A DNA stretch of 46,572 nucleotides from an uncultured Marivita sp. (GTDB lineage Bacteria; Pseudomonadota; Alphaproteobacteria; Rhodobacterales; Rhodobacteraceae): the NCBI GenBank assembly GCA_947503115.1, contig CANNCS010000016.1, positions 1 to 46,572 of the forward strand. The letters run 5' to 3'. Both the position numbers and the translations under genes were made by a program. This document shows positions 8,510-28,633 of the stretch, in pieces (the first letter of the stretch is position 1; every line of letters starts with the position of its first letter). A model generated the notes under the pieces. That model was not told the origin of the DNA and did no database searches. It saw only the letters and a program-made list of their open reading frames with translations.

Positions 8510-8557
8510 CGACCATCATAAGCGCGTGTGAACTTGAACATGAAACGGGAGGAAACC

Positions 8558-9559
8558 ATGTCCATGAAACCAATGATCACTCGTCGGACGCTACTGGGAA
8601 CAGGGGCTGCGGCTGCGACACTCACACTTGCCGCGCCCGGCTTGGTCCGCGCCAGCACCTTTCCCGACCGGAATATCAGCGTCTACGTCCCGACATCGGA
8701 AGGTGGCGGCGCAGACCGCAACTTCCGCGCCTTCTCAAGCGTATGGAAAGAGAAACTAGGCACCGATTTCGAACCGGGTTTCTATCCGGGCGCATCGGGC
8801 CGTGTGGGCTACGAAATCTACATGGGGAAAGCTGACCCTGATTGCTACAATCTGATCTTTGGCAATATGGGCCCAGAAGTTCTGAATTGGGCCATGCAGA
8901 ATCCCAGCTTTGATGTGAACGACTACTTCTACTTCGGCCAGGTCGACAAAGACCCGTGCTGTCTTTTTGTGGGTGCTGAAAGCCCACTGCAAACGATGGA
9001 CGACATTATCGCGGCGTCCAAAACGCGAAAGTTGAACGTGGGAACCAGCCGCATGGCGCACCCGGCTTCTATTGGTCTGCTGGCCCTAGGTGAGAAGTTG
9101 GGTATCGAATTCAACCTGATCCCGCTGCAAGGCGGCAAAAGCACGGTAGCCGGCGCGGTCACTGGTGAAGTTGACTTCTCGGTTCTGACGTCAGGCTCGG
9201 TAATTGCAGCAGGCGATAGCGTGAAAACGCTCCTGGTCTTTGGCAACAATGTTGTGGGTGATCGCCTCGATAATGCACCAAGCATCAACGACGCATACGG
9301 CATGGATCTGCCGGAAATGCTATCGGCGCGTGCATTCGGCATACACAAGAAAGCGGCAGATGATCATCCCGACCGTTTTGAAACATTAAGCAAAACGTTC
9401 AAGGAAACCTTCGACGATCCCAAACTGATGGATGCGTATATCGCCAGCAAGGGAACCCCCGAATACCTGCAATATGCAGATGTCGAGGAATGCGAAGCCT
9501 TCAAGACCGCAATGCTCGAACTTGGCGCACGCTACAAGTCACTGCTCAGCGGAGCTTGA
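8558..9559 (+). CDS. Tripartite tricarboxylate transporter substrate-binding protein (TctC family)
   Basis: A 333-residue periplasmic binding protein of the Bug/TctC family. The N-terminus has a twin-arginine signal (TRRTLLGTG followed by a hydrophobic stretch and an APGLVRAS cleavage region), so it is probably exported by the Tat pathway. The mature domain shows FPDRNISVYVP, GASGRVGYE and the LQGGKSTVAGAVTGEVDF ligand region. The start at 8558 has a GGGAGGA site; an upstream in-frame GTG lacks one. TctB and TctA follow, completing a secondary high-affinity importer for a carboxylic acid. A strong stem-loop separates it from TctB. Confidence 0.9.
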   Translation: MSMKPMITRRTLLGTGAAAATLTLAAPGLVRASTFPDRNISVYVPTSEGGGADRNFRAFSSVWKEKLGTDFEPGFYPGASGRVGYEIYMGKADPDCYNLIFGNMGPEVLNWAMQNPSFDVNDYFYFGQVDKDPCCLFVGAESPLQTMDDIIAASKTRKLNVGTSRMAHPASIGLLALGEKLGIEFNLIPLQGGKSTVAGAVTGEVDFSVLTSGSVIAAGDSVKTLLVFGNNVVGDRLDNAPSINDAYGMDLPEMLSARAFGIHKKAADDHPDRFETLSKTFKETFDDPKLMDAYIASKGTPEYLQYADVEECEAFKTAMLELGARYKSLLSGA

Positions 9560-9568
9560 TGATGTAAC

Positions 9569-9599
9569 GGCCCGGCATCGCAGAGGCACATGCCGGGCC
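9569..9599 (+). other. Stem-loop between tctC and tctB
   Basis: A perfect 10-bp GC-rich inverted repeat (GGCCCGGCAT at 9569-9578 against 9590-9599) with an 11-base loop lies 9 bases after the TctC stop and 35 bases before the TctB start. It has no T-run. Its position is the same as the stem-loop after the ABC binding protein, which suggests protection of the binding-protein message or partial read-through control. Confidence 0.75.
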
Positions 9600-9634
9600 A
9601 CCACTTCCAATCCGCATACAGGGACGCAGACATC

Positions 9635-10147
9635 ATGTCATCGGAGCACCACAAACCACCACGCCAGTTGGGCGGCGAGCTGGTGATCCCCATCCTTGCG
9701 GTGGGCTTCACGGTCTACTTCTTCTCGACCATATGGAATTCACCTTGGACCGCTCAGGTCAGCGCCTTCATGGTCGGAGGCATTCTGATTTTGGTCTGCG
9801 CGATCTTCTTCGTGCGTTGCGCCGTCTGGCTTAGCAGAGGCGAAGCTAGTCTGGGATTCGGCAACCTGTTCACAATGGATGACATCCGGTCAGGTCGGAT
9901 CGGCCTTTTGGTCAGCACTGTAGGCTACGTCTTGCTCATTGACAGGCTGGGCTTCACGCTGACGACTTTTCTGTTTCTGGCACTCAGCATGTTAATCCTG
10001 TCCAAAGGCAAAAACGCGGCCTTTATTACGATGGTTTCAGCGGCAATGGCACTGACCGGATGGGCGGTGTTCATCTGGGCTTTTGACACACGGTTCCCAC
10101 GCGGATGGTTCGAGACCACTATGAAAGCGGTGCTAACAAATGGATAG
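9635..10147 (+). CDS. Tripartite tricarboxylate transporter small permease (TctB family)
   Basis: A 170-residue membrane protein with four predicted transmembrane segments (about residues 15-35, 42-65, 83-105 and 115-145), the standard TctB layout. It forms the integral membrane complex with TctA and has no known catalytic residues. The start at 9635 is preceded by AGGGA at 9620-9624. Its stop overlaps the TctA start by 8 bases, which supports coupled translation of the two membrane subunits. Similarity within this family is weak; the assignment rests mainly on context and topology. Confidence 0.85.
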   Translation: MSSEHHKPPRQLGGELVIPILAVGFTVYFFSTIWNSPWTAQVSAFMVGGILILVCAIFFVRCAVWLSRGEASLGFGNLFTMDDIRSGRIGLLVSTVGYVLLIDRLGFTLTTFLFLALSMLILSKGKNAAFITMVSAAMALTGWAVFIWAFDTRFPRGWFETTMKAVLTNG

Positions 10148-11654
10148 CAGCACAGCCTCCATCCTTGTCGAGGTGTTCTTTGATACACTTGGATATTGGT
10201 ACATCATCATACCAACGATTTTCCTTGGCCTGATCGTCGGTGGCATCCCCGGCTTTTCTGCGGCCAACACGATCATCATCCTAATGCCGCTGACACTTGC
10301 TCTAGACCTGCAATCGGGTCTGGTGTTCATGATTTCGCTCTATTGCGCCGCACGCATGGGCGCGGGTATCCCTGCCATTTTGGTCAACATCCCGGGAACC
10401 GCGGGTGCAGCCGCCACGCCGCTTGACGGTTACCCGATGGCCAAACAAGGCAAGGGCCAACAAGCCCTTGCCATCTCTTTTGTCGCGTCCTGCATTGGCG
10501 GATTGCTCACCACCATGATTGCACTGGCAACCATGCCCATCCTTGCGCGCGTTGGGTTCTATATGCACTCGGTCGAAATGATTGTGGTCATGCTCTTTGG
10601 CATTTCGCTGATCGCGTCAATTGCAGCCCAGGACATGGTGAAGGGCTTGATTGCGGGCTTTCTGGGCTTGATGATTGGATCGATCGGCACCGACGTGGTT
10701 TACGCCACTCCGCGCGGCACGTTCGGGTTCCTCGAACTTTATGACGGGGTGCCGTTGATCCCTGCCCTTGTCGGCCTCTTCGCGGTGTCCGAGGCGTTTG
10801 TCATCATCGAAAAGCGCGTGATCGTGAACCATGACGAAGAACCCAAGACGCCGAACTGGCACGACACGTTCGAAGGCGTGAAAATCGCCCTGAAACGCTG
10901 GACTCACATCGTCTGGACCTCAATCATCGGACTGGTTATTGGCGTGATCCCCGGTGCGGGCGCGTCGATCGCAAGCTTTGTCGCCTACCAGCAATCGCGC
11001 AGTTTCTCCAACACACCCGAAAAATACGGCTATGGCCATCCTGAAGGCCTGATCGCCCCCGAAGCAGCCAATAACGGCGTGACCTCGGGTACGCTTGTGC
11101 CGCTCCTGGTATTGGGCATTCCCGGCGGCGCAACCGCGGCGATCATGCTCGTCGTGATGCAGTTCCATGGCGTCAGCTTTGGCCCGTCGCTCTTCGAAAA
11201 CCAACCCAAGGTCGGCTATGGCATGTTCATGGCGATGGCGGTCAGCTATGTGCTCATGTTTCTGACCATCCTGCCGCTCAGTCGTTACATGAGCCATGTG
11301 ACTACAATCCCGACCATCTATCTTGCACCGATGATCATCAGCTTCACGCTGGTCGGTGGCTTTGTTCCGCGGGAATACATGTTCGACATGTATCTTGCGT
11401 TGGCCTTCGGGGTTTTGGGTTATATCGCACGGCGCACAGGGTATCATGTGGCAGCCATATTGATTGGTGTCATTCTTGGCCCCCTATTGGAAAAGTATTT
11501 CCTCTGGTCGCTCAAGAAATCCGACGGCGACATCATGGTTTTGTTCTCGTCCACGCTGGGCAACATCCTCTGGGTGGCGTTCGCGCTGTCCATTATCTTA
11601 CCCATCGTTTTTGGCATGCGACGCAAACGCAAACTTGAGGTGCCTGCAGAATGA
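10140..11654 (+). CDS. Tripartite tricarboxylate transporter large permease (TctA family)
   Basis: A 504-residue polytopic membrane protein with about 11-12 hydrophobic segments, full length for TctA. Family signatures are GGIPGFSAANTIIILMPLT near residue 37 and its internal repeat VIGVIPGAGASIASFVAYQ near 270, plus GSIGTD and VLGIPGGATAA. It is the ion-coupled translocation subunit that accepts substrate from TctC. The gene overlaps tctB at its start and the beta-propeller gene at its stop (ATGA). Substrate unknown; family members carry citrate, tartrate, aromatic acids and other carboxylates. Confidence 0.92.
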   Translation: MDSSTASILVEVFFDTLGYWYIIIPTIFLGLIVGGIPGFSAANTIIILMPLTLALDLQSGLVFMISLYCAARMGAGIPAILVNIPGTAGAAATPLDGYPMAKQGKGQQALAISFVASCIGGLLTTMIALATMPILARVGFYMHSVEMIVVMLFGISLIASIAAQDMVKGLIAGFLGLMIGSIGTDVVYATPRGTFGFLELYDGVPLIPALVGLFAVSEAFVIIEKRVIVNHDEEPKTPNWHDTFEGVKIALKRWTHIVWTSIIGLVIGVIPGAGASIASFVAYQQSRSFSNTPEKYGYGHPEGLIAPEAANNGVTSGTLVPLLVLGIPGGATAAIMLVVMQFHGVSFGPSLFENQPKVGYGMFMAMAVSYVLMFLTILPLSRYMSHVTTIPTIYLAPMIISFTLVGGFVPREYMFDMYLALAFGVLGYIARRTGYHVAAILIGVILGPLLEKYFLWSLKKSDGDIMVLFSSTLGNILWVAFALSIILPIVFGMRRKRKLEVPAE

Positions 11655-12910
11655 AACGCGAAGTCGAATATGAACTGTCTCGCAACATCCGGCGCCTAGG
11701 CCACTTGGACATAGAAGGTGGCGGCGAAGTTGTCGTGCGGGGAAACTATGCCTTTGTCGGCCACATGAAACCGCCCATGGGCACATCGATCATCGACGTG
11801 TCCGATCCCACAAACCCCAAGGTCGTGTCACACGTTGCTCCACCCGACGAATGGTCACACACCCACAAGGTAAAAGTGGTGGGCGATCTTATGATCACCA
11901 ATGTCGAAATGGATCGCCGACATTTCCTGCGCAAGGGCGACAAGATCGCCGGATTGCGTTCTGAAGGATTGACAGACGATCAGATCGCAGAACGTCTGGC
12001 GGTTAACCTGTCCGACATTGCGGTGTTGGAAGACGCACAAGAGCGTGGCTACACCAGCGGCGGGTTCCGCGTTTGGGACATCTCGGACAGAACCGCTCCA
12101 AAGTTGCTGTCCTATGTCATGACCCACGGCTTTGGCGTACACCGCTTCGATATGGACGCGAACTACGCCTATATCTCGACCGAGATGGAAGGCTATGTCG
12201 GCAACATTCTTGTCATCTACGACCTTTCAGACCCCACCAATCCAACCGAGGTGTCGCGCTGGAACATGCCGGGCCAGCATGTGGCGAACGGCGAAACCCC
12301 GACTGGTGTTGGCTACAGCCACCGTCTGCACCACGCCATGCGTTGTGGCGACGAACTTTGGGCGGCGGTCTGGCACGCCGGGTTCCGAGTGCTTGATGCT
12401 AGCGACATTACCAAGCCGACGGTTAAGGGAAGCTATCGCTTTCCTGCCGCGATCCCCGAACCGACACATACCGTCATGCCGCTGGAACAGACCATTAACG
12501 GAAAACGCTATGCGGTTGTCATCGACGAAGAACACGCCCACCAACCCGGTCGCCTGCATGGCTTTATCTGGATTGTGGACGTTACCGATCTGACCAACAT
12601 GGAACCCATCGCGGCATGGGATCTGTCCGAAAGGCTATGCCCGTGGGTCGGTGAAGAGGGTGTCAGGTTTGGTGGGCATCAGTTCCGCGAAAAGCTCGAC
12701 AGCACGCTTATCTATGCCACTTGGTTTGCTGGCGGAATTAGGGTGCTCGACATCGCGGATCCCTTTCTGCCCGTAGAGGTAGCGCATTTCATGGAGCCCG
12801 GCCCAAGCGGCGCTCCACCGCAATCTAATGATGTGGATGTGGATCACACCGGCCTCATTTACGTTCTAGATCGCAACCGTGGCCTTGATATTTTGGAGAT
12901 GACACTGTGA
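11651..12910 (+). CDS. LVIVD-repeat beta-propeller protein
   Basis: A 419-residue protein without a signal peptide, built from about six or seven repeats. Each has a strand such as FRVLD or SIIDV followed by SDPTNP or a variant (around residues 47, 139, 188, 246, 306 and 365). This is the LVIVD beta-propeller family; no reaction is established for it. Histidines recur once per blade (H70/H72, H164, H224/H227/H228, H273, H343), which suggests a metal site at the propeller axis. A helical insertion lies at 88-132. Start and stop overlap tctA (ATGA) and the OsmC gene (GTGA), so it is part of the catabolic operon and may be an enzyme of the pathway. That last point is inference. Confidence 0.78.
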   Translation: MKREVEYELSRNIRRLGHLDIEGGGEVVVRGNYAFVGHMKPPMGTSIIDVSDPTNPKVVSHVAPPDEWSHTHKVKVVGDLMITNVEMDRRHFLRKGDKIAGLRSEGLTDDQIAERLAVNLSDIAVLEDAQERGYTSGGFRVWDISDRTAPKLLSYVMTHGFGVHRFDMDANYAYISTEMEGYVGNILVIYDLSDPTNPTEVSRWNMPGQHVANGETPTGVGYSHRLHHAMRCGDELWAAVWHAGFRVLDASDITKPTVKGSYRFPAAIPEPTHTVMPLEQTINGKRYAVVIDEEHAHQPGRLHGFIWIVDVTDLTNMEPIAAWDLSERLCPWVGEEGVRFGGHQFREKLDSTLIYATWFAGGIRVLDIADPFLPVEVAHFMEPGPSGAPPQSNDVDVDHTGLIYVLDRNRGLDILEMTL

Positions 12911-13386
12911 GTAACACTGACCTTCTGCCCCCAAGCGTAGACCCTAACACGAAAGCGCTTGGAATCCGCCGAGTCAGCGCCCGGAACGAGGCCTCGACCC
13001 GGTCGGTGATGATGGTACGCGATCACATCGTCGTCACCGACGAGAAGGAGTCAAACACAGGCGTGACCCCGCTGGAGATGACGCTATCTTCGCTTCTTGG
13101 CTGTGAAGGCGTGATCATCAATCGGTGCGCAGAGGCAATGCAGTTTTCCTATACCGCGGTCGACATGGAAGCCGATGGCGAAGTCGACCAACGCGGCAGT
13201 CGTGGCGTGCAGGGCGTTCGGCCCTATTTTAACTGGGTCAAACTGCGCATCCGCGTTCACACAGATGAAACGCAGGACCGGTTTGACCGCCTGACACGCA
13301 ATGTAGAATACCGCTGCCCAGTGATGAACCTGTTCAAATCGGCGGATGTAGACGTGCAAATAATATGGGAGCGCGTTCAACCGTGA
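12907..13386 (+). CDS. OsmC family protein
   Basis: A 159-residue OsmC/Ohr-superfamily protein. The two family cysteines are visible in SLLGCEGVIINRCAEAM (about residues 60-75) and near the C-terminus in VEYRCPVMN. OsmC proteins reduce organic hydroperoxides or act on thiol-linked groups. The GTG start overlaps the propeller stop (GTGA) and the stop overlaps the Mo-hydroxylase small subunit (GTGA), so it is translated within the operon. Placement next to a molybdenum hydroxylase could mean protection against oxidative by-products, or handling of a redox or sulfur step. Neither is shown by the sequence. Confidence 0.83.
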   Translation: MSNTDLLPPSVDPNTKALGIRRVSARNEASTRSVMMVRDHIVVTDEKESNTGVTPLEMTLSSLLGCEGVIINRCAEAMQFSYTAVDMEADGEVDQRGSRGVQGVRPYFNWVKLRIRVHTDETQDRFDRLTRNVEYRCPVMNLFKSADVDVQIIWERVQP

Positions 13387-13838
13387 GCCTTAGATTGACG
13401 ATCAATGGAACACGGCACGAAATATTGTCGGAGCCGGACACACCGTTGATCTACGTTTTGCGCGATGAATTGAAGTTGAAGGGAACAAAACTAGGCTGCG
13501 GCTTAGAGCAATGCGGCGCCTGCGCTGTGATGATTGACGGCAAGGTCGCGCTGTCTTGCGCAACCCCGGTGGAAGTTTTCGACGGACAAGAAATCACGAC
13601 AATTGAAGGCATTGCCGACACCGAAATCGGAAAACGCGTGCAACAGGCGTTCATTGCCCAAACTGCTGCGCAATGTGGGTACTGCACGTCTGGCCTTGTG
13701 GTCGCCGCCACCGCGTTATTGTCGGAAACTCCATTTCCTGACGACGCGACAACGAGCACGGCGTTGACCCCGCATCTTTGCCGCTGCGGGTCGCATCCGC
13801 GTGTGCTCAGGGCGGTGAAGGAAGCCGCCGCAACATGA
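13383..13838 (+). CDS. Molybdenum hydroxylase [2Fe-2S] small subunit (IorA/NicA-like)
   Basis: A 151-residue iron-sulfur subunit of the xanthine-dehydrogenase family. The N-terminal plant-type cluster is held by C39, C44, C47 and C59 (GCGLEQCGAC). The C-terminal helical-domain cluster is held by C98, C101, C133 and C135 (QCGYC and CRCG). All eight ligands are present. It carries electrons away from the molybdenum centre of the next gene product. I prefer the GTG at 13383, which gives a GTGA overlap with osmC, over the in-frame ATG at 13365. As in isoquinoline 1-oxidoreductase and nicotinate dehydrogenase, no separate FAD subunit gene is present. Confidence 0.9.
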   Translation: MSLRLTINGTRHEILSEPDTPLIYVLRDELKLKGTKLGCGLEQCGACAVMIDGKVALSCATPVEVFDGQEITTIEGIADTEIGKRVQQAFIAQTAAQCGYCTSGLVVAATALLSETPFPDDATTSTALTPHLCRCGSHPRVLRAVKEAAAT

Positions 13839-15943
13839 GTCTTGATGCCCATCCGCGTGTCACGGATTGGATCACCATGGACGGCGAACGTCTTTTGGTT
13901 CACACAGGCAAAGTCGATATCGGGCAACGTATTTCCAATGCATTGTTGCGGATTGTTCAGGAAGAACTCGCGGTGCCGCCTTCAAAGGTAGGCTTTGCGC
14001 CGGTCCGCACCGGGACTGCACCGGACGAAGGGATCACCTCGGGTAGCAACTCGATCGAACAATCCGGTCGCGCTGTTGCTTTGGCCGCCGCAACCCTCCG
14101 CAAACACTTACTATGCCTTGCTGCAACCCAACATGGCGGCGACTATTCCGACTGGTCTTTGGTTGACGGCTATGTCCACCGGGCGGGCACCAACCTGCGC
14201 ATCGCTCTGACCGATCTTGCTCGCGCACTTCCCTTCGATCTACTCGTTGACGTCACCCTGCCCCGGCATGTTCCCGATAGCGCCCCGGTCCCCGCGATGC
14301 GTGGCATCACCAAGATGGTTGAGGGGCGTTTCACCTATGTGCATGACCTTGATCTGCCCGGCATGTGGCACGCCCGCCGCGTCAGCCCTCCGCACACGAA
14401 GGCCACTCTGCGTGAGATCGACCAGACCGCAATAGACCGGATCACCGCGAACGGGATGCGCATTATCCGTGATGGCAGTTTCCTTGCCGTGGCGGGTCCA
14501 AGCGAATGGAATGTGGTCAAAGCGGCCTCCAGCCTTGGCCTTGCCTGCACTTGGAACTCGGGCGGCGGATTGCCTGAAACCGATGTTTTCGCGCGTTTTA
14601 CTACTGAACACGCACAACGCTTCCCAGTGATCAGTGGCACGCCGCAAAAAGCCCCGGTGCCGGACCCACTGCTTGCACCCGACCTAAGCGCTCGTTTTGA
14701 ACGCCCCTACCAGATGCACGGCGCATTGGCGCCTTCGGCTGCATTGGCCGAATGGACGGGTGATCGGCTTTTCCTCAAAAGCCACAGCCAAGGCATCTAT
14801 CCACTGCGCGAGGCGATTGCCGACAGCCTTGATCTTTCGCCAGAGCAGGTCGAAATCACTCATGTCCCCGGTTCGGGCTGTTACGGTCACAACGGCGCCG
14901 ATGACACTGCATTTGAGGCTGCGCTGATCGCAATGGCGCATCCCGACACGCCGGTCTTACTAAAATGGTCGCGCGAGGATGAGCACGCATGGGAGCCCTA
15001 TGCCCCAGCAATGGCGGTTCAGGTCGACGCGATGCTCACAGATGGGCGCATCACCACCCTGTCCGCCGAAACCTATAGCGACACACACCGAGGGCGCCCA
15101 CGCCCCGGCCCCAACCGTGCTGGTCCGGCGAAACTGCTGGCCAACCGTTTTCGTACTGACGCGCTGGCTCCATACGTGTCGCCACCCAATATGGGCACCC
15201 ATGCCGGTATGCATCGGAACCTCGACCCCATCTACGACATTACAGAAACTCGTCTGGTCAAGAACCTTGTGCAAGGGCTGCCGCACCGAACCTCAGCGAT
15301 GCGGTGTCTTGGCGCTGTAACCAACATCTTTGCGCTTGAAAGCATGATGGACAAAGCCGCGCGATCTGCTGGTATTGACCCAATCACCTTCCGGCGTGCC
15401 CATCTAAGCGACACGCGCGCCATCGCCTTATTGGACGAATTAGAGCGACGACTTGCGACTTTACCGACTTTGGCCGACGACATGGGACGTGGGATCGCCT
15501 ACGCGCAGTACAAGAACGCCATGACCCGGGTTGGTCTTGCTGTCGACTTGACCGTGACTGACGCTGCCAAAGTGATACTCAACCGCGTGACACTTGTTGC
15601 TGATGCGGGTCGCGTAATCGACCCTGATGGACTAGTCGCACAACTTGAAGGCGGGGTTATGCAAGCGGCAAGCTGGGCGCTCTACGAAGAGGTTACATGG
15701 GACCGTGACGGCATCACTTCGCGGGATTGGGACAGCTACCCGGTGATCCGGTTCGACAACGTGCCTGACATTGACGTGACGGTACTAACCGACAACAGCC
15801 ACCGCTCGGTCGGTGCCGGCGAAGCATCCCCGGGGCCCACCGTCGCCGCCATCGCCAACGCAATCTTTGCGGCTACCGGACTGCGTCTGCAGCGAATGCC
15901 CTTTACCCCCAACACAATCACGCAAGCGGCGTTCGACCTATGA
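13835..15943 (+). CDS. Molybdenum hydroxylase large subunit (isoquinoline 1-oxidoreductase/nicotinate dehydrogenase type)
   Basis: A 702-residue molybdopterin-binding subunit. Recognisable elements are GITSGSNSIEQSG near residue 70, GSGCYGHNGADD near 350 (characteristic of the IorB/NicB branch), and VGAGEASPGPT with the likely catalytic base E663. Enzymes of this branch hydroxylate a carbon next to the ring nitrogen of N-heteroaromatics, or oxidise aldehydes, using water as oxygen source and a cytochrome as acceptor. No fused cytochrome domain is present. It starts with ATGA overlap to the small subunit. A Moco insertion chaperone (XdhC type) is not in the window. Substrate is open; aldehyde oxidation is the main alternative. 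Confidence 0.87.
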   Translation: MSLDAHPRVTDWITMDGERLLVHTGKVDIGQRISNALLRIVQEELAVPPSKVGFAPVRTGTAPDEGITSGSNSIEQSGRAVALAAATLRKHLLCLAATQHGGDYSDWSLVDGYVHRAGTNLRIALTDLARALPFDLLVDVTLPRHVPDSAPVPAMRGITKMVEGRFTYVHDLDLPGMWHARRVSPPHTKATLREIDQTAIDRITANGMRIIRDGSFLAVAGPSEWNVVKAASSLGLACTWNSGGGLPETDVFARFTTEHAQRFPVISGTPQKAPVPDPLLAPDLSARFERPYQMHGALAPSAALAEWTGDRLFLKSHSQGIYPLREAIADSLDLSPEQVEITHVPGSGCYGHNGADDTAFEAALIAMAHPDTPVLLKWSREDEHAWEPYAPAMAVQVDAMLTDGRITTLSAETYSDTHRGRPRPGPNRAGPAKLLANRFRTDALAPYVSPPNMGTHAGMHRNLDPIYDITETRLVKNLVQGLPHRTSAMRCLGAVTNIFALESMMDKAARSAGIDPITFRRAHLSDTRAIALLDELERRLATLPTLADDMGRGIAYAQYKNAMTRVGLAVDLTVTDAAKVILNRVTLVADAGRVIDPDGLVAQLEGGVMQAASWALYEEVTWDRDGITSRDWDSYPVIRFDNVPDIDVTVLTDNSHRSVGAGEASPGPTVAAIANAIFAATGLRLQRMPFTPNTITQAAFDL

Positions 15944-19095: not shown

Positions 19096-19755
19096 ATGCC
19101 AGCCCTACTTTTTGATCTCGACGGCACAATGCTGAATTCGGACCCCATTCACGAGGCCGTGTTCACGGAACTCTGGACGGCGCGGGGTCTGCCCGTTCCC
19201 GAAGGGTTCTACATGAAACAGGTGCATGGCCGCCTGAATGTTGATGTCTTTGCAGATTACTTGCCGGATGAACCCGATCCGCAGGGGCTGAGCGAATGGA
19301 AAGAAGCGCAGTTTCGGGACCGTTTGCCATCGCCCTACCCCTCGACACCCGGACTTGAGGCGTTTCTCGACCACGCACAGGAGCACGGCTGGCAACTCGC
19401 CGTTGTGACCAACGCCATGCGCCTCAATGCCGAAGCGATGCTCGGTGCCATCGGATTGCGATACAGGTTCGAAGTGATTGTGATCGGCGAAGAATGCGCC
19501 CACGGGAAGCCGCACCCGCTACCTTACCTTACCGCGATGAAGCTTCTGGGCGAAGCGCCTGAGACCTGCATCGCGTTTGAGGACAGCCCCTCCGGCATGC
19601 GTGCCGCCGCCGCCTCGGGTGCCTATAGCATCGGCGTCCGGTCCGCGCTGGACGACACCCAACTGCGCGCGGTTGGCGCAAAGATGACAATAGACGATTT
19701 CACAGACCCCAAGCTGCCAGGCATACTGGCCCGCATTGAAGGAATAGCCGCATGA
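19096..19755 (+). CDS. HAD superfamily hydrolase (beta-phosphoglucomutase-like)
   Basis: A 219-residue HAD phosphatase with all four motifs: FDLDGT (I, near residue 5), VVTN (II), GKPHPLPY with the conserved lysine (III), and FEDSPSGM (IV). The helical cap after motif I places it among beta-phosphoglucomutase/phosphoglycolate-phosphatase-like enzymes. It lies 9 bases after the MTHFR gene and overlaps the methyltransferase gene by ATGA, so all three are co-translated. The substrate is unknown, and the link to one-carbon metabolism is by position only. Confidence 0.87.
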   Translation: MPALLFDLDGTMLNSDPIHEAVFTELWTARGLPVPEGFYMKQVHGRLNVDVFADYLPDEPDPQGLSEWKEAQFRDRLPSPYPSTPGLEAFLDHAQEHGWQLAVVTNAMRLNAEAMLGAIGLRYRFEVIVIGEECAHGKPHPLPYLTAMKLLGEAPETCIAFEDSPSGMRAAAASGAYSIGVRSALDDTQLRAVGAKMTIDDFTDPKLPGILARIEGIAA

Positions 19756-20834
19756 CCCGCACGATTGTCGAGTCCAAGACCAAAACCGCCATCATCGGAT
19801 TCGACCAGCCGTTCTGCGTCATTGGCGAACGGATCAATCCCACCGGACGCAAGATCCTGAATGAAGAACTGGAGCGCGGAGATTTCAGCCGGGTCGAAGC
19901 CGACGCTTTGGCGCAGGTCGCGGCTGGTGCCAACATACTCGATATCAATTCGGGCGCCGTGTTCTCGAACAAGATGGCCGAAGATCCGCGTTATGCCGAT
20001 AATAACTTTGTCGAACCGACGCTGATGAAGGAACTGGTCGAACGTGTGCAGGCGATCACCGATTGCCCGCTCTGCATCGACAGTTCTGTACCCGGTGCGC
20101 TTGAAAACGGGCTTGCCGCAGCCGAAGGCCGCCCACTTCTGAACTCGGTCACCGGTGAGGAAGAACGTCTTGAGATGGTGCTGCCGTTGGTCAAAAAATA
20201 CAACGTGCCGGTTGTGGCGATCTCGAACGATGACACAGGCATCTCGGAAGACCCCGACGTGCGCTTTGCAGTCGCTAAGAAAATCGTCGAACGCGCCGCC
20301 GATTTTGGCATCCCGGCACATGACATCGTGGTTGACCCGCTGGTCATGCCGATTGGCGCGATGGGTACAGCGGGCCTTCAAGTTTTCACTCTCGTCCGTC
20401 GCCTGCGCGAAGAGCTTGGGGTCAACACGACTTGCGGCGCGTCCAACATCAGCTTTGGCCTTCCGAACCGTCACGGCATTAACAATGCCTTCCTGCCTAT
20501 GGCGATGGGTGCTGGCATGACTTCTGCCATCATGAACCCGGTCGCCCTCCCCGTCGGCCCCACCAAGATCGCCGAAAAGCGCGCCGAAGTCGCCGCCGCA
20601 GGTATCATGCTGCCCGAAGACATGGACGACGAAGCCTTCTGTGCGCTCTTTGGACTTGGCTCGACTAAACCGCGCCCTGGGAAAGAAATGGAAGCGATCC
20701 GCGCGGCCAACTTTCTCACCAACAATGACGAAGGCGGCGGCGCATGGATTTCGTTCAATCGTCAACCACCGAAAGCCGGGCAGGAAGGTCGAGGCCGCGA
20801 AGGCCGCACCGGGGGCCGCCGTCGCCGCGCATAA
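19752..20834 (+). CDS. Methyltetrahydrofolate:corrinoid/cobalamin methyltransferase
   Basis: A 360-residue pterin-binding (dihydropteroate-synthase-like) TIM-barrel methyltransferase. Typical features are FCVIGERINPTGRK near residue 22, GANILDINSG near 58, CIDSS near 97 and GASNISFGLP near 230. Such enzymes move a methyl group between methyl-tetrahydrofolate and a corrinoid protein during methylamine, betaine or O-demethylation. No corrinoid-protein gene is in the window. The last 20 residues form an arginine/glycine-rich tail ending GGRRRRA, unusual for the catalytic fold. The gene is the last of its operon, with a terminator 15 bases downstream. Confidence 0.87.
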   Translation: MTRTIVESKTKTAIIGFDQPFCVIGERINPTGRKILNEELERGDFSRVEADALAQVAAGANILDINSGAVFSNKMAEDPRYADNNFVEPTLMKELVERVQAITDCPLCIDSSVPGALENGLAAAEGRPLLNSVTGEEERLEMVLPLVKKYNVPVVAISNDDTGISEDPDVRFAVAKKIVERAADFGIPAHDIVVDPLVMPIGAMGTAGLQVFTLVRRLREELGVNTTCGASNISFGLPNRHGINNAFLPMAMGAGMTSAIMNPVALPVGPTKIAEKRAEVAAAGIMLPEDMDDEAFCALFGLGSTKPRPGKEMEAIRAANFLTNNDEGGGAWISFNRQPPKAGQEGRGREGRTGGRRRRA

Positions 20835-23516: not shown

Positions 23517-23626
23517 GAAGTTTCTCCTTACCAGCAGGCCGCAGCCTGCATTGAATTCCACTGCGGTTGTTTAATGGCTCGTGCCCCGCTGCGAAAGCAC
23601 GAAAACACGCCAATTCATGCCGTTTT

Positions 23627-23660
23627 TGTCAAGAGCTTGTCAGTTGACAGCTTTTTGTCA
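23627..23660. promoter_or_regulatory. Phased TGTCA array, candidate operator of the WYL regulator
   Basis: Four copies of the pentamer occur in 34 bases: TGTCA at 23627-23631 and 23638-23642, TGACA (inverted) at 23645-23649, and TGTCA at 23656-23660. Spacings are 11, 7 and 11 bases, so two pairs lie one helical turn apart. The central two make the palindrome TGTCA-GT-TGACA. The array ends 30 bases before the WYL regulator start, where an autoregulatory operator is expected. The function is inferred. Confidence 0.6.
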
Positions 23661-23690
23661 GTATCCACCCAGTGCGGCACGGAGAATCAC

Positions 23691-24356
23691 ATGAAACGAA
23701 GCGACCGGCTATTTGCTCTGATGCAGCGCCTGAAGGATGGCCGCCTGCACACTGCCGAGGCGATGGCGCAGGATCTGGGTGTGTCTGTACGCACGATCTA
23801 CCGCGACATGGATACGCTTGCGGCCTCTGGCGTGCCCGTCGAAGGCGCGCGCGGGTCTGGCTATACCGCACAAGAGATGATCACCCTGCCACCCTTGAAC
23901 CTGACGCAGACAGAACTCGAAGCGCTCCATATCGGTCTTGCCACTATTGGAGCCTCTGACACAGAAGATCTTGCCAGTGCCGCCCGCGCCCTTTCCGACA
24001 AGATCGACGCCGTATTACCCGAAGACGTGGGCACGCCGACCGGTAAGTTTGGCTTTGCCACCTACCCCTTTGCCGAGGCCGCACAGGGTTTTCGGCACAT
24101 GCCAGCCTTCCGCAAGGCGATCCGCGCCCGCCAGAAGCTGCGCCTTCGGCTGGAGGAAGAAACAAAGATCCATGTCGTCCGCCCGCTGCACCTTGATTAC
24201 TGGGGCCGCATCTGGACCTGCGTCGTTTGGGACGAAACCGACGACACCTTTGCGACCTTCCGCATGGATCGGGTGACCGACCTCACACTAATGCCGGGGC
24301 TGTTTGTCGATGAGGCTGGCAAAACACTTAAGGATTTTCATGCCTTGCAGTCTTGA
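23691..24356 (+). CDS. YafY-type transcriptional regulator (HTH_11 + WYL-like)
   Basis: A 221-residue regulator. The N-terminal HTH (residues 1-60) has the YafY pattern: RLFALMQRLKDGR, then VSVRTIYRDMDTL as recognition helix, then GARGSGY in the wing. The C-terminal half (about 130-215) resembles a WYL ligand-sensing domain; a tryptophan-rich strand DYWGRIWTCVVWDE is visible but a canonical WYL triad is not. The ATG at 23691 has GGAG upstream. The reductive dehalogenase gene follows after 56 bases with no terminator, so the two are likely one transcription unit, and this protein is the probable sensor for its substrate. The upstream TGTCA array is its candidate operator. Confidence 0.85.
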   Translation: MKRSDRLFALMQRLKDGRLHTAEAMAQDLGVSVRTIYRDMDTLAASGVPVEGARGSGYTAQEMITLPPLNLTQTELEALHIGLATIGASDTEDLASAARALSDKIDAVLPEDVGTPTGKFGFATYPFAEAAQGFRHMPAFRKAIRARQKLRLRLEEETKIHVVRPLHLDYWGRIWTCVVWDETDDTFATFRMDRVTDLTLMPGLFVDEAGKTLKDFHALQS

Positions 24357-24412
24357 GCGCAGAGTGCTGCACTTGGCGAGGACGCGGAACACCGCGCCAA
24401 TGGGAGGACATA

Positions 24413-27400
24413 ATGGGTTTGCGGTTCTTTTCCGATAAAAATCGGCCAGTTCACATGGGGCCGTTTCCGCTCGAACGTGCGATACGCGGACCGATGCCGG
24501 ACCCGGCGTCGATTCCTCCGCATCTCGGCCTCAGCTTTCACCGCCCCGACAACCCCGCTTCAATCGTCAATGCGATGGGCGAATACCAGGCGATGATGGA
24601 TGCCATTCGCGACGGGTTCGTGAACAAGGTTAAGTCCACATGCCCAGATGATGTAACGGAACGCGCGAACCATTTGAAAGCGTTTGGATATTTCTCGGAT
24701 GCGACCATGGTGGGAATAGGCCCGTTAGTGCCCCAAGCCCACCTGCCTGAACCGCGTCTGAACCCAGACATCGACCGATTGTCCAACGATCTAAAAACCC
24801 GTCAAACCAAGACACTCGCGTCTGGCATCGACATGATCATGGCCGACCTGAAAGAGTCGATGGAGGCGCCACCCAGCACCATTGACGGTCATCACACCAC
24901 ACTGGTGTTCCTCTACGAAATACCCCGAGATCCCAAACCCCGCGAAACCGGGACTGACTGGATCACGGACGCACAAGCCCACCGCGCCTGCCTAAGGGCA
25001 ACCGAAACCGCTGTTGTAATCGCCAATTACATCCGCCTGTTGGGTTGGGACGCCAAAGCACATTCCGCCACCAGCACAGATGTTGACCTCAACACCTGCA
25101 CCGTTGCCGCCGGATTGGCCTCACTTCAAGACGGACAGCTGCGGAATCCTTGGCTGGGCGACCGCTTTGGCGTGGCAGTGGTTACGACAACCCTGGAACT
25201 TGCGCATGACGCGCCGCTGGCAACAACGCAGCCGACATCCCTGACTCAAGGCTTGGCGTGGAAGCTTGGCACAGCCTCGGCACGCTCTGGATTGAACACC
25301 AATCCGTTCGACAACCGCCGTTATGTAGATGGCCCACATCCGTTCGAGACCCTCAAACGGGTTGATGTGCCGACCACATACATCGATGAACTTAACGTCG
25401 CCCGAGTTCCAAAACGCACTGACATGTTTGCCCGTGCGCAGTTTGGCGACATGGGAAAAAAACTTCAGGACGGTGCAAAAGGCGGCTACTACGCTCGCAA
25501 AGCCGCACCCTCATCGGCGCAACGCCGGATGCTTGGCGCGTTTGTGCTTTTGCAAGACGGCCCGCCCTGCTCTGATCCGGTCACGCCGAACCCCAAAGCC
25601 CATGCCGATGCGATCAAGGCAACCGCGTACTGGCTGGGTGTCGATGCTCTTGGGATCAGTCGCTGCCCGGATTGGACGTGGTATAGTCACGATGCGCGCG
25701 GCGACGTGATTGATCCGCCGCACGATCAGGCGATCAGCATCATCATAGACCAAGGCTACGAGACCATGGACGGCGCATCCGGCGACGACTGGATCAGCGT
25801 GGCGCAATCCATGCGCGCCTATCTGCGATTTTCGCTTCTGGGCGGCGTGCTGGCCAAACAAATCCGCAATCTTGGATACAGTGCCAAGGCGCACACGGTC
25901 CTTGATGGCGAAGTGCTGCAACCGCCGCTGCTTCTGCTGTCTGGTTTGGGCGAGGTCAGCCGCATCGGTGAAGTGATCCTCAACCCGTTCCTTGGTCCGC
26001 GCCTCAAGTCCGGCGTCGTGACCACCGACATGCCGCTGGCGCATGACAAACCCATCGACTTCGGTCTGCAAACGTTCTGCGAAAGCTGCAACAAATGTGC
26101 CCGCGAATGCCCGTCGGGCGCGATCACGGCCGGACCAAAATTGATGTTCAATGGCTACGAGATCTGGAAATCCGACAGCCAGAAGTGCGCCACCTACCGC
26201 ATCACCACTGAGGGCGGCGCGATGTGCGGGCGCTGCATGAAAACCTGCCCGTGGAACCTTGAAGGGTTGTTTGCCGAAAAGCCGTTCCGCTGGGCGGCAA
26301 TGACCCTACCACAAGCGGCCCCGCTGTTGGCCAAACTGGACGACGCAGCCGGGCGCGGCGGGCTGAACCCTGCCAAGAAATGGTGGTGGGATCTGGAGTT
26401 GCAGGACAACGGCAGCTATGCGCCCACCAACCATCCGGTGAACGCGCGTGATCTGCAAAAAGAGCTCGACCTGAAATACGAGGACCAGACGCTTGCCGTC
26501 TACCCTGCCCCGCTTGCTCCGCACCCCTACCCATACCCTGACCCGATGGACCGCGAGGCCGGGATTGACGCCTATACCAAGATGGTCAGCGCGGACGAAC
26601 ACAAGACGCGGCTGGCTAGGGGCGACACATCTCACCTTCACCGACCCAAGGACACCACGGAAAGCCCAGTGGTGCCCGTGGTGGTTAGCAAGGTCGAAAA
26701 GATGTCGCCCTCGGTCACCAAATACGAATTCCGCCACGTCGACGGGCATGACCTTCCAGAATGGACCGCGGGCGGGCATCTGGATCTGGTCGTGGCACCG
26801 GAATTCTTACGCCAATACTCTATGTCCGGCGATCCCGCAGATCGGTCCGTCTACCAAATCGGCGTGCTACGCGAGGATCAGGGGCGTGGTGGTTCAGCAC
26901 TGCTGCATCGCATCTTTGCCGAAGGGCGAAGGGTCTTTGTGTCGAAACCCATCAATCATTTCCCACTGGTTGAAGACGCGACATTCACATGGCTCATGGG
27001 CGGTGGCATCGGCGTCACCCCGATGATTGCCATGGCGCATCGCTTGAACGCTTTGGGGCGGCCCTTTGCGTTGCATTATTCGCTCAAGACACGCGCCGAG
27101 GCCGGGTATCTTGACGATCTAGCCAATGTGCCGTGGGCCGACAAAGTGCATATCCATATCAGCGATGAAGGCGCGCGCGCCGATCTGAACGCGCTGATAA
27201 CGGACTACAAGGACGGTCAGCACATCTACACCTGCGGCCCTGATCTTTACATGAACTCTGTAATGGAAGTCGCTGAACAAAAACGCTTTCCAGACGAAGC
27301 GAAACATCTGGAATACTTTGCCGTGCCGGAATTGCCCGAGTACGAAAACCACCCATTCACGCTCAACCTAACCGACGGACGCAGCTTCCATGTGCCCGCC

Positions 27401-27613
27401 GATAAGACGGCTACAGACGTGCTGAACGAAAACGGGGTGTCGGTGGATGTGAAGTGCTCGGACGGGATCTGCGGTGTGTGCAAAGCGCGGATCGTCAGTG
27501 GCGCGGTCGAGCATCGGGATTTTGTCCTGTCCAAAGCGCAACGCACTGACCAGATCATCCTGTGCCAATCGCGTGCCGCCGAGCCGGATGGAGAGATCAC
27601 GATCGACTTGTAA
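24413..27613 (+). CDS. Self-sufficient reductive dehalogenase (RdhA-reductase fusion, BhbA/NpRdhA type)
   Basis: A 1066-residue fusion. Residues 1 to about 690 form a cobalamin-dependent reductive dehalogenase, with two [4Fe-4S] clusters from C556/C559/C562/C566 (CESCNKCARECP) and C592/C605/C608/C612 (CGRCMKTCP). Residues about 700-960 are a flavin/NAD(P)H reductase (RQYSMS, MGGGIGVTPM, YTCGPDLYM), and 975-1066 a [2Fe-2S] ferredoxin with C1015, C1020, C1023 and C1051. Y424 and K482 may match the catalytic Tyr426/Lys488 of NpRdhA; an alignment is needed. There is no twin-arginine signal and no RdhB anchor gene, so it is cytosolic and catabolic, not respiratory. The start has GGGAGGA at 24402-24408. 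Family members debrominate or dechlorinate halophenols aerobically; the substrate here is unknown. Confidence 0.9.
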   Translation: MGLRFFSDKNRPVHMGPFPLERAIRGPMPDPASIPPHLGLSFHRPDNPASIVNAMGEYQAMMDAIRDGFVNKVKSTCPDDVTERANHLKAFGYFSDATMVGIGPLVPQAHLPEPRLNPDIDRLSNDLKTRQTKTLASGIDMIMADLKESMEAPPSTIDGHHTTLVFLYEIPRDPKPRETGTDWITDAQAHRACLRATETAVVIANYIRLLGWDAKAHSATSTDVDLNTCTVAAGLASLQDGQLRNPWLGDRFGVAVVTTTLELAHDAPLATTQPTSLTQGLAWKLGTASARSGLNTNPFDNRRYVDGPHPFETLKRVDVPTTYIDELNVARVPKRTDMFARAQFGDMGKKLQDGAKGGYYARKAAPSSAQRRMLGAFVLLQDGPPCSDPVTPNPKAHADAIKATAYWLGVDALGISRCPDWTWYSHDARGDVIDPPHDQAISIIIDQGYETMDGASGDDWISVAQSMRAYLRFSLLGGVLAKQIRNLGYSAKAHTVLDGEVLQPPLLLLSGLGEVSRIGEVILNPFLGPRLKSGVVTTDMPLAHDKPIDFGLQTFCESCNKCARECPSGAITAGPKLMFNGYEIWKSDSQKCATYRITTEGGAMCGRCMKTCPWNLEGLFAEKPFRWAAMTLPQAAPLLAKLDDAAGRGGLNPAKKWWWDLELQDNGSYAPTNHPVNARDLQKELDLKYEDQTLAVYPAPLAPHPYPYPDPMDREAGIDAYTKMVSADEHKTRLARGDTSHLHRPKDTTESPVVPVVVSKVEKMSPSVTKYEFRHVDGHDLPEWTAGGHLDLVVAPEFLRQYSMSGDPADRSVYQIGVLREDQGRGGSALLHRIFAEGRRVFVSKPINHFPLVEDATFTWLMGGGIGVTPMIAMAHRLNALGRPFALHYSLKTRAEAGYLDDLANVPWADKVHIHISDEGARADLNALITDYKDGQHIYTCGPDLYMNSVMEVAEQKRFPDEAKHLEYFAVPELPEYENHPFTLNLTDGRSFHVPADKTATDVLNENGVSVDVKCSDGICGVCKARIVSGAVEHRDFVLSKAQRTDQIILCQSRAAEPDGEITIDL

Positions 27614-27697: not shown

Positions 27698-27949
27698 TCA
27701 GCTGTCGGCTTCGGGCATCAACCCTTCGGTCTGCGCTACCGCCAGCTCATCAGCGTTGATAAGTCCGTCGCCATCAGCATCCACCGCCAAGAACGTGTCT
27801 GTTGTCACTTCCGGAAGGATGGCCTGCACCTCTTCAAAAGACAGCATACCATCCTGATTGGCATCAGCGGCCATGTAGTCGGCGGCGACTGCCGCCATAG
27901 GCAGGGTGATCAGGCTTGCTGCGATCAATCGGGTCAATGTCAGTTTCAT
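27698..27949 (-). CDS. Secreted EF-hand calcium-binding protein
   Basis: An 83-residue protein with a Sec signal peptide (hydrophobic residues 6-22, cleavage probably after VAA). Two EF-hand loops follow: D29-N31-D33-M35-S37-E40 and D57-D59-D61-L63-N65-E68. Both have the standard ligand pattern, so calcium binding in the periplasm is likely. The ATG at 27949 is chosen because GGGAG precedes it and a complete signal peptide results. It is divergent from a small ECF sigma factor across 225 bases, an arrangement that may mean sigma-controlled expression. I cannot name a specific function. Confidence 0.82.
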   Translation of the reverse strand: MKLTLTRLIAASLITLPMAAVAADYMAADANQDGMLSFEEVQAILPEVTTDTFLAVDADGDGLINADELAVAQTEGLMPEADS

Positions 27950-28174
27950 TTTGGTCTCCCATTCGGCCATGTTGATGAAGCACCGCGTTTTGCGGCCTTC
28001 ACGAGGTATGAGTACGAAACCGGTGCTGGCGTCCCGCCCCCCCAGCGCTGCGGCACAGTCCTGCTCAAACTCGCCCACGAACTGCGCAATCCGCCGCGCA
28101 AAACAAGCCGCGTTTTGCCATCGGCGGAATCCCCCGGGATGGTCGGGGATTTTCACGCTGTCATAACTTTCAGT

Positions 28175-28633
28175 ATGGACACATTTCACCTCATCCGCCT
28201 GCGTGCGCGCGCCCGCCGCCTGACACGCAGCCCCCAGGATGCCGAGGATCTTTGCCACGAGGTCTGTCTGGCGGTTTTGGAACAAGAGAAATCAGGCGCG
28301 CGGATCACGCGCCCCTTACCATATATGATGACTGCCCTGCGCCATGCCGCAGCTGCGCGATCCCGTAGAACGGTCCGTGAAACGCTGATTCAGGAGGAGC
28401 ACGAACCACAGGTCGCGGATGCGGAGCTGGCTTGTCTATGTTCCCAGGTTTTGGCGCGCATGGAGTCTCTGCCTGCCCCAGACCGCGCCCTGTTGCGGCG
28501 CGTGGCTTTTGAGGGACTCACCCCGTCAGAGCTTGCAGAAGAAATGGACGTGCCCGTCGGTACAATCATGTCCCGCCTCGCCCGCGCCCGTGCGCGGCTC
28601 CGCAAGGCGGTGGGGATCGCATCGGTGTTCTGA
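28175..28633 (+). CDS. ECF-type RNA polymerase sigma factor
   Basis: A 152-residue small sigma factor. Region 2 is compact (LTRSPQDAEDLCHEVCLAVLEQE, residues about 15-40). Region 4 has the helix-turn-helix LTPSELAEEMDVPVGTIMSRLARARARL near residues 115-145. It is slightly shorter than most ECF factors because the N-terminal part of region 2 is trimmed; an upstream non-ATG start is possible since the frame stays open to the left. No anti-sigma gene is adjacent. The divergent EF-hand gene is the obvious candidate target. No -35 GGAAC-type motif with correct spacing was found in the 225-base gap. Confidence 0.82.
   Translation: MDTFHLIRLRARARRLTRSPQDAEDLCHEVCLAVLEQEKSGARITRPLPYMMTALRHAAAARSRRTVRETLIQEEHEPQVADAELACLCSQVLARMESLPAPDRALLRRVAFEGLTPSELAEEMDVPVGTIMSRLARARARLRKAVGIASVF

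Follow-up and report, generated by a model that had tools for sequence, protein, structure and literature searches.

We analysed a stretch of 46,572 nucleotides (positions 1 to 46,572 of contig CANNCS010000016.1) from an uncultured Marivita sp. (Rhodobacteraceae; assembly GCA_947503115.1), hereafter the window, which carries on its forward strand a gene, rdhA, predicted to encode a reductive dehalogenase fused to its own reductase, directly downstream of a gene for a WYL-type regulator. A preliminary description of this DNA, made without database searches, had read rdhA as a complete self-sufficient reductive dehalogenase of the respiration-independent type. The open reading frame (ORF) starts with ATG behind a GGAGG ribosome-binding site (24403-24407) and encodes 1066 residues with no internal stop. 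The gene and the parts of its product are as follows.

24413-27613, plus strand: rdhA, encoding a 1066-residue predicted self-sufficient catabolic reductive dehalogenase (TIGR02486 pass, 4ras match, identity to BhbA, residue alignment)
24413-25555, plus strand: N-terminal, presumably vestigial RdhA half, residues 1 to about 381, boundary estimated (NpRdhA alignment)
25556-26680, plus strand: predicted functional core for cobalamin and two [4Fe-4S] clusters, residues about 382-756, boundaries estimated (TIGR02486, NpRdhA alignment)
26681-27322, plus strand: portion of the reductase that binds flavin and NAD(P)H, residues about 757-970, boundaries estimated (2pia match)
27323-27610, plus strand: [2Fe-2S] ferredoxin domain, residues about 971-1066, with Cys 1015, 1020, 1023 and 1051 (Fer2 match)

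The window protein passes the NCBIfam reductive dehalogenase (RDH) model TIGR02486 with 198.1 bits against a cut-off of 160.35, BhbA of Comamonas scoring 203.3, and its residues 3-108 and 159-742 align to the crystal structure of NpRdhA from Nitratireductor pacificus (PDB 4ras, E 4.5e-151 overall). For residues 757-1065 the match is to phthalate dioxygenase reductase (2pia, E 7.2e-52), reductases of this type being the best solved relatives of residues 755-1066, and the Fer2 domain at the C-terminus scores 40.1 bits (cut-off 21). The flavin- and NAD(P)H-binding part also contains RQYS, GGGIGVTP and CGP motifs, which we presume to carry their customary meanings. With the dehalogenase and a flavin/NAD(P)H/[2Fe-2S] reductase united in one polypeptide, the protein belongs with the self-sufficient fusions of RdhA to a phthalate dioxygenase reductase-like module (RdhA-PDOR), as had first been proposed. 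It also has the marks of a catabolic RdhA, in that a twin-arginine translocation (TAT) signal is lacking and the N-terminal half aligns with that of NpRdhA; the vestigial role of this half is taken from PMC10463259. The earlier claim that neither an export signal nor the anchor RdhB is present held for the signal, since the Tat-type RR pair expected of a respiratory RdhA does not occur within the first 60 residues, and for RdhB it held among the scanned window proteins, the rest of the genome not having been searched for this protein. A chance ORF was excluded by 94% end-to-end identity to the nearest relative and by the retention of the catalytic residues in all 84 sequences of the alignment described below.

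The Pfam family PF13486 (Dehalogenase) found nothing in the window protein at E ≤ 0.1, and its search of the host genome returned no match, in a run in which the control also matched nowhere. The same family misses BhbA, the Nitratireductor homologue of BhbA and the fused copy of Roseobacter sp. MED193 (locus L031). Because BhbA and other relatives are missed, PF13486 does not mark the RdhA fusion subfamily, and its silence is no evidence against membership.

Active-site and cluster residues were compared in an alignment of 84 sequences, comprising the window protein, 78 of 80 fetched loci and five plasmid copies including BhbA. Y470, K532 and R596, equivalent to Y426, K488 and R552 of NpRdhA, are identical in all 84, as are the [4Fe-4S] cysteines (556, 559, 562 and 566; 592, 605, 608 and 612), the four [2Fe-2S] cysteines (1015, 1020, 1023 and 1051), and S466, M467 and F339 (NpRdhA S422, M423 and F291). 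The preliminary description had counted all 12 cluster cysteines as in place and had proposed aligning the Tyr/Lys/Arg residues with BhbA and NpRdhA; the count was correct and the residues proved conserved. According to PMC7565698, NpRdhA loses its activity in the K488Q variant, is impaired by R552L and has its specificity altered by A419M. The two loci outside the alignment (L025 and L074), which had been dropped by the gene caller, were examined separately; neither has an internal stop, and both keep the SMRAY, GPRxKS, KCxTYR, CxxCxxCxxxCP and [2Fe-2S] motifs.

The substrate pocket is a point of difference. Position 338 (NpRdhA F290) is M in 78 of the 84 sequences, position 463 (A419) is V in 81 and position 496 (N452) is V in 82, the window protein having M338, V463 and V496, and the combination of M or L at 338 with V463 and V496 is common to 81 sequences, unlike BhbA, which has F, S and A. 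A further stretch of about 50 residues (109-158) is without a counterpart in NpRdhA, where a gap falls between residues 103 and 112; within the 84 sequences not one of the 50 columns of this stretch is invariant. RdhA-PDOR fusions are said in PMC10463259 to bear an insert, and we take this insert to be the 109-158 region. As far as a sequence can predict it, it is almost certain that the rdhA product is a reductive dehalogenase of the type of BhbA and of JtRdhA from Jhaorihella thermophila.

BhbA, the bromoxynil debrominase of Comamonas sp. 7D-2 (WP_015585978; plasmid pBHB, locus L115), has the same architecture end to end, with 49% identity to the window protein overall and 58% in the catalytic core, and shares all of its cluster cysteines and catalytic residues; its counterpart of residues 109-158 is almost equal in length but has another sequence. 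The bhbA gene is plasmid-borne, and its neighbours include genes for protocatechuate 4,5-dioxygenase and a pobA frame that is truncated. NpRdhA (PDB 4RAS, 6ZXU) is alike in its RdhA region, including the N-terminal half and the catalytic residues, but lacks a reductase module according to PMC10463259, so that of the two enzymes originally named as models for a self-sufficient protein, BhbA stands and NpRdhA does not. JtRdhA (WP_104007082) resembles the window protein, by the published account, in being a marine RdhA-PDOR fusion without a TAT signal, with a duplicated cobalamin domain and conserved Tyr/Lys/Arg. As described in PMC10463259, the purified enzyme is coupled 1:1 to NADPH and is active in air; its best substrates are 3,5-dibromo-4-hydroxybenzoate and 3-bromo-4-hydroxyphenylacetate (the latter at 99% of the best rate), 2,6-dibromophenol is turned over at 7%, iodophenols are deiodinated, and chlorophenols inhibit and are not dechlorinated. 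JtRdhA also lets E. coli W grow on 3-bromo-4-hydroxyphenylacetate, and the tree of that study includes copies from Ruegeria pomeroyi, Tropicibacter and Pseudovibrio. A brominated or chlorinated natural product had been suggested as the substrate of the window protein; given the failure of JtRdhA to dechlorinate, the chlorinated half of that suggestion is the less likely one. Another TAT-less reductive dehalogenase (RDase) of a marine roseobacter, Ros_A3X954 of Roseobacter sp. MED193, debrominates 2,6-dibromophenol and is reported to be oxygen-sensitive, and we take it to be of the short, unfused type from the position of its cluster motifs at residues 283-345 (PMC13101508). MED193 additionally has the fused copy mentioned above, which shares 72% identity with the window protein. 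Enzymes of this type had been described from other marine bacteria before, and the window gene is a sound further example; our additions are the pobA linkage, the clade-wide pocket difference from BhbA and NpRdhA, the regulator element and a figure for prevalence.

The host genome (G000; 4.5 Mb in 344 contigs) contains one fused RdhA, and no second RDase match of comparable strength was among the matches listed for it. The nearest named relatives are those of Marivita species and Marivita metagenome-assembled genomes (MAGs), at 81-92% identity, and one MAG copy (L001) reaches 94%. On the quick tree that we built, a phylogeny of RdhA fusions having been among the checks proposed, the nine genus loci form a single branch; L001 and L002 were counted in the genus by their placement there and not by name. 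Full-length rdhA is present in 14 of the 17 genomes of the genus, the host included, and is found in two pieces on two contigs in another (G300); it is absent from G302 and G305. In the family, sampled as one genome per genus from a larger group, 115 of 295 genomes have a match at E ≤ 1e-100, which on inspection is nearly full length in 109 and partial or split in six. Five plasmid records carry a copy 60-80% identical to the window protein. The preliminary description had treated such an enzyme as a surprise in an aerobic marine-type genome; by these counts it is instead a common state in the family, and a marine homologue, JtRdhA, is already characterised (PMC10463259). Among the papers listed in literature searches, we found none on this gene in Marivita. 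In a number of family genomes, a second, short RDase (a frame of about 390-460 residues) also exceeds the RDH cut-off besides the fused one of about 1070 residues.

To narrow the substrate, we looked at the genes around rdhA. Gene neighbourhood as a general guide was rejected, as outside the genus no family occurs in more than 12 of 84 loci within about 8 kb; the commonest annotated recurring neighbours are aldehyde dehydrogenase (12 loci), CT_A_B and LamB_YcsF (11 each) and TRAP permease (10), and no pathway common to rdhA loci was found among the annotated recurring families. The gene for a PobA-type 4-hydroxybenzoate hydroxylase, sought by translated search in 85 loci (the 80 fetched and five plasmid loci, only 52 of the 85 being at least 20 kb long), is present in 4 of the 80 and 2 of the five, respectively. 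In L023, pobA overlaps the start of rdhA by one base, and in L049 and L062 it begins 9 bp past the end of rdhA, an arrangement that probably reflects one event, as the latter two are sister rows in the quick tree. The distance is 5.7 kb in L076 and 3.4 kb in the Nitratireductor plasmid L118. At the nine active-site positions examined, L023, L062 and L076 agree with the window protein, and L049 differs at one (A463). The PobA equivalog cut-off is exceeded by five of the six finds. The one from the BhbA plasmid covers model positions 119-390 only (434.6 bits against a cut-off of 538.7) and is a 5'-truncated frame of 281 residues located 2.3 kb upstream of bhbA. In this region (1822-4669 of L115), the pobA frame lacks a start and stands downstream of another frame, which we take to resemble a transposase.

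In the host genome, pobA is clustered with pcaQ, pcaD, pcaC, pcaH, pcaG and pcaB on contig C14. Phenols resembling bromo- or iodo-4-hydroxybenzoate are favoured because pobA lies beside rdhA in relatives and because the host has its own pobA-pca cluster. On balance we lean towards brominated or iodinated 4-hydroxybenzoates, or near relatives of these, as the substrate class, a view that is carried over to the window copy from its relatives. A substrate left open in the preliminary description has thereby been narrowed, through pobA abutting rdhA in three relatives and the pobA-pca cluster of the host.

Upstream of rdhA, we identified two further features.

23691-24356, plus strand: HTH_11/WYL (YafY-type) regulator of 221 residues, 56 bp upstream of rdhA
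23625-23664, plus strand: candidate 40-bp cis element composed of four TTGTCA-like units, a short way upstream of the WYL gene

Comparison of coordinates placed a WYL gene directly upstream of rdhA, on the same strand, in all 15 rdhA-bearing genomes of the genus, counting the host and the split G300. G305 has neither gene. G302 retains the WYL gene (83% identical) without rdhA, flanked by tatBC and by nrdJ, which lies about 220 bp past the WYL stop (locus L133, G302:C14:82000-97000; the tat genes belong to the TatC and TatA/B/E families by Pfam); this state may represent either loss of rdhA or an earlier condition. Because the rdhA-less G302 retains the WYL gene, the pairing with a regulator that had been pointed out at the outset is real but not exclusive. 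In the window, the interval between rdhA and nrdJ (27698-28633) encodes a small EF-hand protein on the minus strand and a sigma-70-family, extracytoplasmic function-like factor on the plus strand, for which the gap in G302 is too short.

The cis element consists of two blocks, of 26 and 13 bases, separated by one variable base. Both blocks are identical in nine of nine genus loci while nearby bases vary, and in G302 a single central change turns a TTGACAG unit into another TTGTCAG. TGTCANNTGACA occurs at five places in the genome, compared with three for the reversed control. The longer element pattern, searched genome-wide at no more than one mismatch, has no site other than its own overlapping reverse match, and at two mismatches it has six more sites against four control matches in all. 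No WYL regulon was found in this way. We read the 40-bp element as a putative operator of the WYL protein itself, and from the position of the two genes control of rdhA by this protein is likely. No paper joining 'reductive dehalogenase' and 'WYL' was found in a literature search.

Further upstream, a HAD hydrolase gene is followed by one for a pterin-binding (methyltransferase-like) protein (19096-20834), and a run of genes about 8-16 kb from rdhA (8528-15943) encodes TctC, TctB and TctA of a tripartite tricarboxylate transporter, together with LVIVD-repeat, OsmC-like and molybdopterin-binding proteins. On the BhbA plasmid, too, there is a TctC-type gene, in that case adjoining rdhA, a resemblance that may be incidental.

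From these data we favour an account in which the window protein is a cytoplasmic BhbA/JtRdhA-type enzyme that most likely acts on the bromo/iodo-4-hydroxybenzoate class and feeds PobA, and we put its probability at about 0.75; the particular substrate class, taken by itself, is only slightly more likely than not. NAD(P)H would reduce the bound flavin, from which electrons would reach cobalamin by way of first the [2Fe-2S] domain and then the two [4Fe-4S] clusters, and the cobalt would take the halogen from an ortho-halophenol. Tyr470, tuned by Lys532, would donate the proton while Arg596 holds the phenol oxygen, and halide and the dehalogenated phenol would be released. To judge by its likeness to characterised relatives, the enzyme very probably debrominates or deiodinates phenols; its most likely substrates would be 4-hydroxybenzoate, or compounds close to it, in 3-bromo, 3,5-dibromo or iodo form, and 4-hydroxybenzoate produced in this way would pass through PobA into the protocatechuate pathway. 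The gain for the host would be carbon and detoxification, not respiration. Cobalamin binding is predicted from the match to NpRdhA, and since the neighbouring NrdJ belongs to the B12-dependent class of ribonucleotide reductases, use of cobalamin by the host is very probable regardless.

Several observations weigh against this account. In the host, pobA and rdhA are unlinked, on contigs C14 and C16, and no pathway gene adjoins rdhA, in agreement with the initial remark that halophenol pathway genes are missing next to it. Among the relatives, pobA is missing from the examined flanks of 76 of the 80 loci, and two of the four positives (L049 and L062) are close relatives. Pocket positions 338, 463 and 496 are unlike both NpRdhA and BhbA, and K307, F310 and P311 of NpRdhA align to A355, Y360 and A361 in a loop where the alignment is interrupted by gaps, a portion of the pocket that appears either not conserved or not reliably aligned; carrying substrates over from NpRdhA and BhbA is uncertain for these reasons. 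The likeness to JtRdhA was drawn from its published description only, and activity has been shown for JtRdhA only. The host has a 1227-residue CobN-type frame, whose model match, in two pieces, stays below the curated cut-off in both. For the window copy, activity, substrate and WYL control are all inferred. The same lack of linkage, in the host and in the 76 loci, would suit an enzyme that has the mechanism given above but acts on a different bromophenol from the sea, for instance 2,6-dibromophenol or the 3-bromo-4-hydroxyphenylacetate that arises from bromotyrosine breakdown, and serves detoxification or scavenging without feeding PobA, and the rates of JtRdhA on these two compounds (PMC10463259, as cited above) are in keeping with it. 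The recurrence of pobA-rdhA adjacency across separate lineages argues the other way, as does the absence from the host genome of a match to the Fe-type homoprotocatechuate dioxygenase model, a weak negative given that the control passed the cut-off in no genome. We consider this alternative doubtful.

Whether the WYL protein and the dehalogenase are neighbours only, the regulator answering another signal such as DNA damage or nucleic acid and not halophenols, is a closer question. G302 retains the WYL gene, the element and the tatBC-nrdJ surroundings without the enzyme, and several papers on WYL proteins listed in a literature search treat DNA damage or phage defence; against this stand the unbroken same-strand pairing in the 15 rdhA-bearing genomes and the absence of both genes from G305. 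We judge this explanation plausible, although somewhat short of even odds. An epoxyqueuosine reductase-like protein without dehalogenase activity, which the preliminary description had named as a finding that would overturn it, is by comparison very improbable. The protein does match the QueG model TIGR00276, at 23.2 bits against a cut-off of 200, a weak score expected from shared ancestry; its RDH score is above the cut-off, the active-site Tyr/Lys/Arg/Ser of NpRdhA are present, and a true QueG scoring 440 bits is encoded elsewhere in the genome. QueG-like activity was therefore rejected.

In its broadest form, the account would make the fused enzyme part of a widespread scavenging of organobromine by marine Rhodobacteraceae, in which bromo- and iodo-4-hydroxybenzoates are delivered to PobA, under WYL control in this genus through a unique four-unit TTGTCA element; taken as a whole we regard this as tentative, and more probably wrong than right. 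If the enzyme works as predicted, a single protein would allow roseobacter-type bacteria across much of the family to debrominate or deiodinate natural phenols of the sea under air, and the dehalogenated ring would enter ordinary aromatic metabolism. The genus locus offers a natural comparison, in the form of a congener that has the regulator without the enzyme.

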